A stretch of DNA of 7,981 nt from Candidatus Fermentibacterales bacterium (GTDB taxonomy: Bacteria > Fermentibacterota > Fermentibacteria > Fermentibacterales > JAFGKQ01). Where the stretch lies: the NCBI GenBank assembly GCA_016928495.1, contig JAFGKQ010000219.1, forward strand, positions 1 to 7,981, given 5' to 3'. The notes under the pieces were generated by a model. The model saw nothing but the letters and a program-made list of their open reading frames with translations. It was not told where the DNA came from and did no database searches. The position numbers and the translations under genes are program-made. This document shows, one piece after another, positions 3,454 through 7,981 of this stretch; the stretch's first letter is position 1, and the number at the start of each line of letters is the position of its first letter.

Positions 3454-3903
3454 ATGGCGGAGGTGAGTGAGGTATCGCTCGATATCGCCCAGGGGAGCAG
3501 GGACGAACTGAAGAGGGTCACGGTCGAGTGGCGCCTGACCTTCGGGCCCCAGGACGCCGGAAAGAGGTTCAGGCTGCTCGTCATGCTGCTCGGAGAGGAC
3601 ATGCCCGGGGATGACGAGCCGCCCGCTTCGCAAGGGCGTGCCGCCTCTCAGTGGCTCTACACCTTCACGCGCGCCGACGGTACGAGGCACAGGATCGTCG
3701 AGGCCGTCGAAGGGACCGCCGTGTACAGGGAGAGCCGGGAGCTCGACAGATCAGTCCTTGACGAGGATCCGGGCTTCGATCTCATCCGCAGGGAGCCCGG
3801 CGACTGGGTGCGCTTTCCGCACAAGGACGAGGTCTACGCCCGGGTCACTCTGGTGGAGGAGCCTTGCCAGGCTCGCTCGGAGACGGTCGAGCTGGTGTTC
3901 TAG
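3454..3903 (+). CDS. Uncharacterised 149-residue protein
   Basis: I do not recognise this protein. The ATG at 3454 follows AAGGAGG with an eight-base spacer, and a near-consensus promoter lies upstream, so expression is likely. There is no signal peptide or membrane helix, which points to the cytoplasm. The sequence alternates in a beta-sheet-like way: VTVEWRLTFGPQDAGKRFRLLVMLLGE reads as paired strands, followed by WLYTFTRADGTRHRI, then EREPGDW-like turns (REPGDWVRFP) and a final YARVTLVEE strand. A compact beta-sandwich is a guess. Acidic residues are abundant (GDDEPP, DEDPGFDL). It has a single cysteine near the C-terminus. Its stop codon overlaps that of the convergent arsenate reductase gene. 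Codon use resembles the neighbours. Confidence 0.75.
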   Translation: MAEVSEVSLDIAQGSRDELKRVTVEWRLTFGPQDAGKRFRLLVMLLGEDMPGDDEPPASQGRAASQWLYTFTRADGTRHRIVEAVEGTAVYRESRELDRSVLDEDPGFDLIRREPGDWVRFPHKDEVYARVTLVEEPCQARSETVELVF

Positions 3904-4388
3904 CCGGGAAGCACACCGCCGTCCTCCGGAAGATGAAGCACCGTTCTCGAGTCCCCGGAGTCGGTGAGCCAGTCGGGAAGCTCCAGCACGAACTCGCCTA
4001 TGGCATCTCTCGTCCCCCTGTAGACCTGCAGCTTCTCCTCCCACGACATGTCCTCTCTCAGCAGGTCCACTGGGTCCTCGAAACCCCTGTGCAGCACGAC
4101 TGTCGTCCCGGGAAACACGGGGCAGCTCTCCCGGGCGCTTCCGCACAGCGTCACCACGTAGTCGAACCCGAGATCAGCGACCTCGCCGACGCTCTTGCTC
4201 CACTGCCCGGAGATGTCGACGCCAGCTTCTCTCATGACCTCGATGGTGAGGGGGTTCATGCCGTCTGCCCTGATGCCCGCGGAGAAGGGCTCCAGCCGGT
4301 CGCCCCTGAGCTTCCTGGCCCAGCCCTCCGCCATCTGGCTCCTGCAGGAGTTGCCCGTGCAGAGGAACAGGACCCTGGGTCTGTCCAT
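3900..4388 (-). CDS. arsC: Arsenate reductase, thioredoxin-coupled LMW-phosphatase type
   Basis: The protein (162 residues) reduces arsenate to arsenite in the cytoplasm by a cysteine relay, within the low-molecular-weight protein tyrosine phosphatase fold. The CX5R phosphate-binding loop is CTGNSCR at residues 10-16 (Cys10 nucleophile, Cys15, Arg16), followed by SQMAEG. The redox pair Cys82 and Cys89 lies in TLCGSARESCPVFPG, and the catalytic DP motif is Asp105-Pro106. These positions match those known for Staphylococcus aureus pI258 ArsC, where Cys82/Cys89 are recycled by thioredoxin. The family is about 131-140 residues; here about 28 extra residues (DSGDSRTVLHLPEDGG region) follow the domain. 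The ATG start at 4388 follows GGAAGGGAGG at a rather long spacing. No arsR or arsenite efflux gene lies in the window, so its pathway partners are elsewhere. It could act on other phosphate-like substrates, but the complete cysteine set favours arsenate. Confidence 0.93.
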   Translation of the reverse strand: MDRPRVLFLCTGNSCRSQMAEGWARKLRGDRLEPFSAGIRADGMNPLTIEVMREAGVDISGQWSKSVGEVADLGFDYVVTLCGSARESCPVFPGTTVVLHRGFEDPVDLLREDMSWEEKLQVYRGTRDAIGEFVLELPDWLTDSGDSRTVLHLPEDGGVLPG

Positions 4389-5227: not shown

Positions 5228-5294
5228 ACGAGTGGGTTTTCTGCAGCGAAATCCGGCATCGACGAACGGTGCGTTCCCGGGAGGTGATGGCCAC

Positions 5295-6536
5295 ATGTCG
5301 GCACGCCCCAGCATCTCGGTCCTTTCTCTCCTGCTTCTGCTTCTCCCATGTACGTCCCTGTCCGACTGGGAGCCCATCGGACCCGAGGGTGGTGAGATCA
5401 ACAGCATCACGCAATCGCTGACTGACCCTGACGTCCTCTACGCAGCATCCGGCTCCTATCCGGTCATAGTCGTGCGCAGCTACGACGGCGGGCAGAGCTG
5501 GAGCCAGGTCGGCACCTACAACGGTTACAACTACTGCATGACCATAGGGCCGACCGGCATCCTGAACGCGGGCGGCGCACACGCAGTCTACAGGTCCACC
5601 AACGGTGGCGTGACATGGACGACCAAGAGCCTCTCCAACGTCTACGTCTACAGCATGGTCGCGCACCCCACCGACCCGGATATCGTCTACGCGGCGGGCT
5701 ACCAGTACGTCAGCAGCCAGTGGCGCATGGCGTTCCTGAGGAGCGTCAACGGAGGCTCGGACTGGACTGTGACCCCTCTGCTGTCAGAGGCCTCCTACGG
5801 CAGGTGCGTGGCAGTCTCGCTCTCGAACCCGGACATCGTCTGGGTGGGCGGCTACTGCACGACGGCCAGCCCCTACGATCCACGCGTCTTCAAGTCCACC
5901 GACGGCGGCGACAGCTTCACAGAGGTCGTCAACTCCGGCTGGAACGATGACTACTACCTCTACTCGCTGGCGGTGCACCCCACGAATCCCGACATAGTCT
6001 GCGTCGGCACCTACTATGGCATATTCAGGACCACCAATGGCGGGTCCAGCTGGTCCGAGGTGGCCCAGTACTACTACTACAACTACGACATGGAGTTCTC
6101 CAGGCTGGACCCCAACTACGTCTACGTCGCGGGATACAGCCAGATCTACCGCAGCTCGAATGCCGGACAGACCTGGACGAAGATCTCCTCCGGCCTCTCC
6201 GGAACGGGCATAGACAACATCGCGGCATCGCTGGGCCAGGCCAGCGACGCCTACATTGGCAGCATCGCCGGCTTCTTCATGTCCGAGAACTACGGCTCCA
6301 CCTGGACGCAGTCGAACTCCGGCCTGACGCTGGGGAAGGTCATCGCCTACGGCATGTCTCCCTCGCAGCCCTCGATCATCTACAAGTGCCTCACCGACAT
6401 GGGGGTCTACAAGACGACCGACGCCGGCAACACCTGGATCGACATAGAGACCCCCCTGACATGCGGAGACTTCTGCGCCATGGCGACCCATCTGAGCGAT
6501 CCCGACATAGTCCTGGCGCTCGAAGGGAGTGGTTGA
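5295..6536 (+). CDS. Secreted Asp-box beta-propeller protein, N-terminal part up to an in-frame TGA
   Basis: The 413 residues before the TGA carry a signal peptide (MSARPSISV, a leucine run, cleavage likely near TSLS at residue 23). Eight Asp-box (BNR, sialidase/sortilin-type) motifs follow: RSYDGGQSW (61-69), then RSTNGGVTW, RSVNGGSDW, KSTDGGDSF, RTTNGGSSW, RSSNAGQTW, a degenerate SENYGSTW, and KTTDAGNTW. Each follows a NPDIVYAAG-like strand, the pattern of WD40/YVTN/BNR or Vps10-like propeller blades. These proteins are usually extracellular and bind surfaces or ligands; no sialidase catalytic residues are evident. ATG 5295 is chosen because GGGAGGTGA lies seven bases upstream and the signal peptide starts there; an earlier in-frame ATG at 5199 coincides with the -35 box. 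The frame continues past the TGA with the same repeats, so this product is truncated unless the stop is read through or is a sequence error. Confidence 0.85.
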   Translation: MSARPSISVLSLLLLLLPCTSLSDWEPIGPEGGEINSITQSLTDPDVLYAASGSYPVIVVRSYDGGQSWSQVGTYNGYNYCMTIGPTGILNAGGAHAVYRSTNGGVTWTTKSLSNVYVYSMVAHPTDPDIVYAAGYQYVSSQWRMAFLRSVNGGSDWTVTPLLSEASYGRCVAVSLSNPDIVWVGGYCTTASPYDPRVFKSTDGGDSFTEVVNSGWNDDYYLYSLAVHPTNPDIVCVGTYYGIFRTTNGGSSWSEVAQYYYYNYDMEFSRLDPNYVYVAGYSQIYRSSNAGQTWTKISSGLSGTGIDNIAASLGQASDAYIGSIAGFFMSENYGSTWTQSNSGLTLGKVIAYGMSPSQPSIIYKCLTDMGVYKTTDAGNTWIDIETPLTCGDFCAMATHLSDPDIVLALEGSG

Positions 6537-7127
6537 GGCTACGCAGAGCTCTACAGGAGCACAGACGGAGGCTTCGTCTGGACACTGATCGACAACAACT
6601 ACTACGTTGATGGCGGCTACATGGTTGCGGACCCGGTGACCCCCAACGTCTACTGGACCGCTGGAAGGGACCTGAACTCCAGGATCGCGGCTTCGAAGAC
6701 GACTGACGGCGGTGCCTCGTGGACCCGCTATTCCCTCGGCTCGACCACCGGCTACGCATACTCCGTGCAGGTGGACCCGATCAGCCCGGGCACGGTCTAC
6801 GTCGCGGGCTACGAGAACAGCCAGCCCGTCATCTACAGGACCACCAACGGGGGAAGCAGCTGGTCCACGCTGGCGGCTGCGGGCCTCCAGGGATACGTGT
6901 ACACCTTTGCGATAGACCCGACCGATCCGACCGTCCTGTGGGCCGGGACCAACTACGGCATCTTCAAGTCCACCAACTCGGGGTCGAGCTTTACCGAGAT
7001 GTCGACGCTGGTGGACCACACCAAGGACGTCTGTGTGGATCCGGACGACGGTGACCGCGTCTGGGTCGGAACCTACAACGAGGGCGTGTACGTGACCGAG
7101 GATGGCGGCTCCACGTGGACGCAGATG
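5475..7127 (+). repeat. Thirteen tandem Asp-box blade repeats
   Basis: The protein repeats S-x-D/N-x-G-x-x-W roughly every 40-50 residues, eight times before the TGA and five after it (RSTDGGFVW, KTTDGGASW, RTTNGGSSW, KSTNSGSSF, TEDGGSTW). Thirteen blades would fit two propellers of six or seven blades. At DNA level some copies remain close: 6027-6056 and 6837-6866 match at 25 of 30 bases, both beginning AGGACCACCAA. This suggests blade duplication or gene conversion. The blades are rich in tyrosine, with a TAC run at 6069-6080 giving YYYY. Confidence 0.85.
6534..6536 (+). other. In-frame TGA interrupting the beta-propeller gene
   Basis: The codons run GAA GGG AGT GGT TGA GGC TAC GCA GAG CTC TAC, codon 414 of the full frame. 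The next 334 codons continue in the same frame with intact Asp-box blades and a sorting tail, and no other stop. The stop falls within a blade, between the IVLAL strand and YRSTDGG, where other blades carry G- or Y-rich loops. One substitution from GGA, CGA or TGG explains it. TGA is a true stop elsewhere here (2436-2438; 2483-2481), so a global TGA reassignment is not supported. Confidence 0.85.
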
Positions 7128-7541
7128 AACGAAGGCCTGGATCCCTCCAGGGTCGACAGGCTGGCGGTCAACCCCTCCAACTGGCTCTATGCCGGCACCT
7201 ACGGAGGATCCTCCTACCGCTGGAGCCTTCAGACCGGTGTCGAGGACCAGGGATCGGCGCCCATCGAGACCCTCGCGATGAGCGTCTTTCCCAATCCCTG
7301 CCCGGGAGGCTCCGGTGCGACCATAGCGTTCAGCCTCGACGCCCCCCGAGAGATGAGACTCCTTCTGTACGACCTGGGTGGAAGGCTCGTCGCCAGCCCT
7401 CTGGAGGCCTTCATGCCCCAGGGCGAGCACACGCTCAGCTTCGTCCCGGATCAGGAGGGCATGGCGCCCGGAGTCTACTTCTGCAGGCTGGCCGTGGATC
7501 AGGGCGCTTCGATCGTTCGCAGGCTGGTCGTCATCCGGTAG
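6621..7541 (+). CDS. C-terminal part of the beta-propeller protein with a sorting-tail domain
   Basis: This is the same reading frame as the gene starting at 5295, resuming after the TGA; homologous sequence begins at 6537. The first ATG after the stop is at 6621 and has no good ribosome-binding site, so independent translation is doubtful and this may be the dead half of a pseudogene. It encodes 306 residues: the last four Asp-boxes (a fifth lies between the TGA and this ATG), then a C-terminal domain of about 87 residues. That domain has SVFPNPCPGG, ATIAFSL, LLLYDLGGRLV and APGVYFCRL, and ends RRLVVIR. This pattern (FPNP, a D-x-x-G-R-x-V strand, G-x-Y strand, basic end) is that of FlgD-Ig-like / type IX secretion sorting tails, which are cleaved at export in Bacteroidota. 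Without this part the protein would lose its secretion or anchoring signal. A strong terminator follows the TAG. Confidence 0.75.
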   Translation: MVADPVTPNVYWTAGRDLNSRIAASKTTDGGASWTRYSLGSTTGYAYSVQVDPISPGTVYVAGYENSQPVIYRTTNGGSSWSTLAAAGLQGYVYTFAIDPTDPTVLWAGTNYGIFKSTNSGSSFTEMSTLVDHTKDVCVDPDDGDRVWVGTYNEGVYVTEDGGSTWTQMNEGLDPSRVDRLAVNPSNWLYAGTYGGSSYRWSLQTGVEDQGSAPIETLAMSVFPNPCPGGSGATIAFSLDAPREMRLLLYDLGGRLVASPLEAFMPQGEHTLSFVPDQEGMAPGVYFCRLAVDQGASIVRRLVVIR

Positions 7542-7620: not shown

Positions 7621-7981
7621 CTACTCGATGCTGAAGCTGACCTGGACGCTGGCCGTTGCGGTGAAGGAGCCGGGCGTCACTGGCGGCGCCTCCCCGTAGC
7701 CCGTCAGGCCTCCGCCGTAGTTGCACAGGGCCGAGGTGGCGTCCGCGTAGGGGTAGTAGCTTCCCCATTCCGACACGGACTGCGCCTCGCCCAGAGTCAC
7801 TCCGAGGGATTCCGCCAGCAGCTCCGCCCGGTCACGCGCGTCATCGACAGCATCGGCATAGGCGCTGTCGTAGAGGGCGGTCGGGTCATCCACGGTGAAG
7901 TAGACGCTGCTCACGCTGTTGGCTCCGGCCTCCACAAGGGCCGCGAGCACATCCCCTACCTCGCCCATCTCGCGGACGTCC
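7621..7981 (-). CDS. SIMPL (DUF541) domain protein, C-terminal part
   Basis: The gene runs in from the right edge; about 119 C-terminal residues are visible, ending at a TAG (7623-7621). The frame is open to the window edge through DVREMGEVGDVLAALVEAGA, so the ATG at 7968 is internal. The signature is typical of the SIMPL/YggE/BP26 family: VRE(M)GEVGDVLAALVEAGANSVSSVYFTVDD, then an alanine-rich helix (SAYADAVDDARDRAELLAESLGV), and a last strand FTATASVQVSFSIE. These proteins are generally periplasmic or envelope-associated, about 230-250 residues with an N-terminal signal; E. coli YggE is linked to oxidative stress, and the biochemical role is unclear. The glycine/tyrosine loop (NYGGGLTGYGEAPP) is the usual variable insert. 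No conclusion on regulation is possible because the 5' end is outside. Confidence 0.85.
   Translation of the reverse strand, partial: DVREMGEVGDVLAALVEAGANSVSSVYFTVDDPTALYDSAYADAVDDARDRAELLAESLGVTLGEAQSVSEWGSYYPYADATSALCNYGGGLTGYGEAPPVTPGSFTATASVQVSFSIE

Follow-up and report, generated by a model that had tools for sequence, protein, structure and literature searches.

A UGA codon very probably read as selenocysteine in a family of beta-propeller proteins of uncultured bacteria

The gene, its product and its neighbours

The window, i.e. the whole stretch of 7,981 nucleotides analysed here (contig JAFGKQ010000219.1, Candidatus Fermentibacterales bacterium), carries a gene of 748 codons closed by a TAG stop (5295..7541, +), defined by translation, a fold model, and profile and Foldseek matches. 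A likely ribosome-binding site, GGAGGTGAT, was read in the sequence before the ATG at 5295 (5280..5288, +). The gene is laid out as a leader peptide, tandem Asp-box propellers and a C-terminal sorting-type domain. As noted in a preliminary description of this DNA, the frame 5295-7541 contains one stop and no frameshift; on translation, the stop is a single internal TGA at codon 414 (6534..6536, +), placed also by the alignments of relatives. Eight Asp-boxes lie upstream of the TGA, and the intact frame downstream holds five more, followed by the sorting-type tail, again in line with that description. A standard ORF caller splits the gene in two.

The neighbours in the window encode a DUF1846 protein (183-1709, -), an HTH regulator (1932-2438, +), a low-molecular-weight phosphatase/arsenate reductase-like protein (3903-4388, -) and a SIMPL-domain protein (7624-7980, -). 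No link to selenium was seen among these four. No gene neighbourhood is conserved across 22 loci of the family, and thus there is no operon clue to the substrate.

The AlphaFold2 model (pLDDT 88) features a long series of blades and a C-terminal domain. The best Foldseek matches are all GH74 xyloglucanases (5fkt, E 9e-26, TM about 0.65). The GH74 fold is made by two seven-bladed propellers, and the window protein is modelled likewise, as two Asp-box propellers in a tandem seven-bladed fold. The tandem Asp-box propellers, seen in both Foldseek and profile matches, are what is shared with GH74 enzymes. In contrast, identity is about 16%, and the window protein features a putative selenocysteine (Sec) and Cys390 instead. 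At this identity the GH74 profile alignments are shifted by repeats, and the register of the catalytic Asp pair is unfixed. A second structural look with VIA-align was uninformative on function, single propellers being alignable to many WD40 chains.

A hydrophobic leader is seen in the sequence at the N-terminus. The C-terminal sorting-type domain (7284..7532, +) is a weak match to TIGR04183, scoring 20.9, just under the cut-off of 23; the tail of a WOR-3 homologue scores 43.4, above it. The type IX translocon protein SprA is encoded in the genome of the window. A sorting-type C-terminal domain, just below cut-off in the window, and SprA in the genome are shared with surface proteins secreted by the type IX secretion system (T9SS). 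Because SprA is present and the tail of the WOR-3 homologue passes the sorting-domain cut-off that the window tail barely misses, T9SS secretion of the window protein is likely.

The internal TGA, the RNA element and the selenocysteine genes

The read-through protein, carrying X at position 414, served as query for relatives in 60 related genomes; all family sequences come from MAGs. About 20 full-length relatives were found, most with exactly one internal TGA. The TGA falls on codon 414 in 23 core members of the same order (Fermentibacterota), the window gene included, which are 33-48% identical to the window protein. Beyond Fermentibacterota, about 20 more TGA-bearing loci were identified in WOR-3/Stahlbacteria, and one in Zixibacteria. 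A scan of named genomes added members from Ca. Fermentibacteria, Sabulitectum, Aegiribacteria, Hyd24-12, WOR-3, Stahlbacteria and one Zixibacteria contig, and found the TGA in all clear family members except one Aegiribacteria copy, from which it has been lost. Altogether, 42 core members, from Ca. Fermentibacterota, WOR-3/Stahlbacteria and one Zixibacteria contig, have a TGA at the codon 414 site and an open frame beyond; relatives in this set are 28-48% identical. In four distant paralogues, about 25% identical to the window protein, the TGA is one residue off, since one codon after the TGA is missing. In close pairs, synonymous and non-synonymous differences give pN/pS values of about 0.15-0.4 on both sides of the TGA, so that purifying selection acts about as strongly past it as ahead of it; together with the shared site of the TGA, this excludes chance or decay.

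Some loci deserve separate mention. The four distant Sec-bearing paralogues (L035, L037, L038, L039; identity as above) probably make up a second subfamily. The genome of the window hosts a second member featuring a TGA and a SECIS, found in two pieces (G000:C103:10-1188 and G000:C205:11957-12583), possibly one gene split across two contig ends. A member on a contig labelled as Thermoplasmatales archaeon (L114, contig LSSI01000083.1) groups within the WOR-3 clade of the tree; the contig is probably mis-binned.

Just past the TGA, synonymous variation is about nil in the codons for Glu, Leu, Arg, Ser, Thr, Asp, Gly and Ser (23 sequences), as compared with a mean of 1.76 bits and a minimum of 1.22 at conserved four-fold residues in the rest of the gene. 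RNAalifold, unprompted, recovered in this region an element made by two hairpins. The first is small (GCUCU/GGAGC; 6548..6560, +), is supported by RNAalifold and pairing counts, and competes with another pairing when the window sequence is folded alone. The second, supported by alignment folds and z-score, is the apical hairpin of a bacterial SECIS (bSECIS; 6562..6580, +), and has an 8-bp stem, CAGACGGA/UUCGUCUG, and a GGC triloop (6570-6572). Family-wide, the apical stem measures 8 bp (CAGACGGA/UCCGUCUG), carries a GGU or GGC triloop, and starts one base past the small hairpin; most WOR-3 members have a 7 bp stem and a CGGGU loop. The loop starts 33 nt after the TGA.

The element comprises 12-13 pairs, three of which exhibit changes on both sides; for example, four sequences have A-U in place of G-C, and five have C-G in place of A-U. 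Pairing holds in 93.6% of cells, vs 34-48% when partners are slid (41 sequences). When the window sequence is taken by itself, the 28-nt apical piece stands out for its stability (z = -3.14), and the full 54-nt element is no better than shuffled sequences (z = -0.81). The bSECIS model has G at the first two loop positions, a stem of 4-16 bp and a UGA-to-loop distance of 16-37 nt (PMC13188914); the 8-bp stem, the GGU/GGC (or CGGGU) loop and the 33 nt spacing all fit this description. In the 60 genomes, a covariance model of the element gave strong scores in family members only, and also matched a remnant in the TGA-less Aegiribacteria copy (E = 2.8e-12). In the genome of the window, the SECIS model R1 hit convincingly only the window gene and the second member (C103). 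The element was unmatched in an Rfam scan of the window, which returned no credible known RNA family. In one relative (L033, G033:C133), an Asp-box Asp is changed to Asn, along with a silent change, and a SECIS base pair is thereby preserved; here the protein appears to have been shaped by the RNA constraint.

The genome of the window (2.3 Mb, 81% complete) carries a selenocysteine machinery of its own. A tRNA-Sec with UCA anticodon (G000:C136) scores 74 bits vs a gathering threshold of 47. SelB is present, over cut-off; the end of SelA adjoins SelB at a contig edge, as a fragment that scores below cut-off. Two SelD genes, both over cut-off, have each the known N-terminal Sec TGA (CAG-U-xxK). 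In the first SelD gene, the sequence past the TGA folds into a stem whose GGC triloop is closed by A-U, and thus shares the apical arrangement of the window element. The two SelD genes, with the in-frame TGA in both, are arranged in tandem (G000:C329:357-2646). Because the TGA is conserved, a SECIS lies downstream and the genome has its own Sec machinery, codon 414 is almost certainly read as Sec. SelB would bind the hairpin immediately past the UGA and bring Sec-tRNA(UCA) to the ribosome at this codon, and Sec insertion would yield one 748-residue protein. This would be exported via its leader, probably handled by type IX secretion, and presumably located at the cell surface.

The cysteine at codon 390

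Alignment of the core members points to a partner residue upstream of codon 414, the Cys of a CGD motif at codon 390 (6462..6464, +). Cys390, in a CGD or CGN context, is found in 42/42 Sec-bearing core members and in 0/4 Sec-less ones. The latter have Tyr, Tyr, Tyr and Ala at position 414, and Ala, Ala, Thr and Phe at position 390. Sec-less members sit at three separate places of the maximum-likelihood tree, as forced by the starred branches, which implies at least 3 losses. The coupling is specific to Cys390, since Cys394 is retained in three of the four Sec-less members; in most of these, Glu410 and Gly413 have disappeared as well. The four distant Sec paralogues are devoid of Cys390, and feature an invariant Cys 26 residues past Sec, where the next blade begins. 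No locus returned by the collection scan has Cys at the Sec site, though one of the peptide patterns used accepted Cys. In the Aegiribacteria copy L026/L124 (G024:C126), Ala replaces Sec and the SECIS remnant is still recognisable (R1 E = 2.8e-12), denoting a recent loss of Sec.

In the fold model, strands span residues 393-398, 406-410 and 417-422. Cys390 would thus be located in the loop ahead of strand A, and Sec414 in the loop joining strands B and C, on the same face of one blade. Since the two loops share one face, we lean slightly towards a redox pair, with Cys390 and Sec414 forming a selenenylsulfide/dithiol-like couple on one propeller face. A redox-active Cys-Sec pair is our best guess on function, and metal binding the main alternative. 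Given Sec, it is quite possible, if less likely, that Sec and Cys390 serve as metal ligands or as a purely structural crosslink. Binding of metals or ligands is common on propeller faces, and the partner Cys resides elsewhere in the distant paralogues, both of which would suit such roles; the near-invariant positions gave no third conserved ligand (e.g. His), and selenoproteins are mostly thought to be oxidoreductases (PMC13188914), which argue for the redox pair.

Other readings of the UGA and known selenoproteins

Bacterial Sec insertion is usually incomplete, and some 413-residue product is expected whenever it fails. As the sorting tail is encoded downstream of the TGA, selenium supply might act as a switch between a short, tail-less form with eight Asp-boxes and a long surface form. 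We regard such a switch as improbable, as the short product would end partway through a blade of the second propeller, and the co-conservation of Sec and Cys390 points to the chemistry of the residue rather than to stopping.

Even less probable is that the UGA is decoded otherwise, by near-cognate read-through, a suppressor tRNA or local reassignment to Trp, Gly or Arg, with the hairpin merely aiding read-through. The frame past the TGA is open under selection, as this would also entail, and the flanking glycines might tolerate many residues. However, TGA is an ordinary terminal stop both in several homologues and in the window itself, where it closes the HTH gene (2436-2438), and the other long frames of the genome have no internal TGA. 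The presence of the Sec machinery and of SelD selenoprotein genes, the fit of the hairpin to the SECIS model, and the lack of the co-conserved Cys in Sec-less members likewise favour decoding as Sec.

The options listed in the preliminary description, with no preference among them, were a recent nonsense mutation, a base-call error, read-through and recoding; GGA, CGA or TGG at codon 414 in relatives would have pointed to the first two, but the aligned relatives show TGA, so that mutation and error are discarded and recoding, specifically to Sec, holds. A pseudogene generated by mutation or error, which has in its favour only that a single TGA breaks the frame, is practically negligible in front of about 40 independent loci in three phyla sharing the same TGA amid codon-level conservation.

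Decoding of codon 414 as Sec would place the window protein next to the bacterial selenoproteins that depend on SelB and SECIS, such as formate dehydrogenase and SelD. An in-frame UGA, a GG-type apical loop within 16-37 nt, and tRNA-Sec, SelA, SelB and SelD in the genome are shared features. In contrast to those proteins, the window protein is a predicted secreted tandem beta-propeller, no Cys version of it was found, and its family features a second conserved hairpin ahead of the apical one. The Cys homologue at the Sec site, usual though not essential in arguing for a selenoprotein, has no counterpart in the window family.

A 2026 inventory lists 119 prokaryotic selenoprotein families, and a propeller is not among them; the families of Haft and Tolstoy 2025 are included in the review table. 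No report of a propeller, VPS10-like, T9SS, Fermentibacter or WOR-3 selenoprotein was found in the literature searched. The family of selenium proteins is apparently unreported. Sec insertion follows a known mechanism; the protein family, the fold and the absence of a Cys version are new, as far as could be checked. On the whole, we think it more likely than not that these genes form an ancient and so far unreported family of selenoenzymes, secreted and built as tandem beta-propellers. The family would extend to three or more phyla of uncultured bacteria; Sec would nowhere have given way to Cys, and the partner Cys, sited on a propeller face, would be obligate. The most common approach to selenoprotein finding requires a Cys homologue, which this family does not offer; if the reading is correct, families of this sort escape search methods built on such homologues. 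An exported beta-propeller would be an addition to the folds known to carry Sec, and the joint loss of Cys390 and Sec marks a testable active-site pair in uncultured bacteria.

Existing profiles recognise the window protein by its blades. NCBIfam NF045728 (F510_1955 family glycosylhydrolase) scores 205.6 vs a cut-off of 175, and Pfam Sortilin-Vps10 127.2 vs a cut-off of 33; both score the repeated Asp-box blades, and neither name takes in the Sec residue. The name assigned to 5295-7538 through NF045728 would be glycosylhydrolase, from the Asp-box repeats alone.
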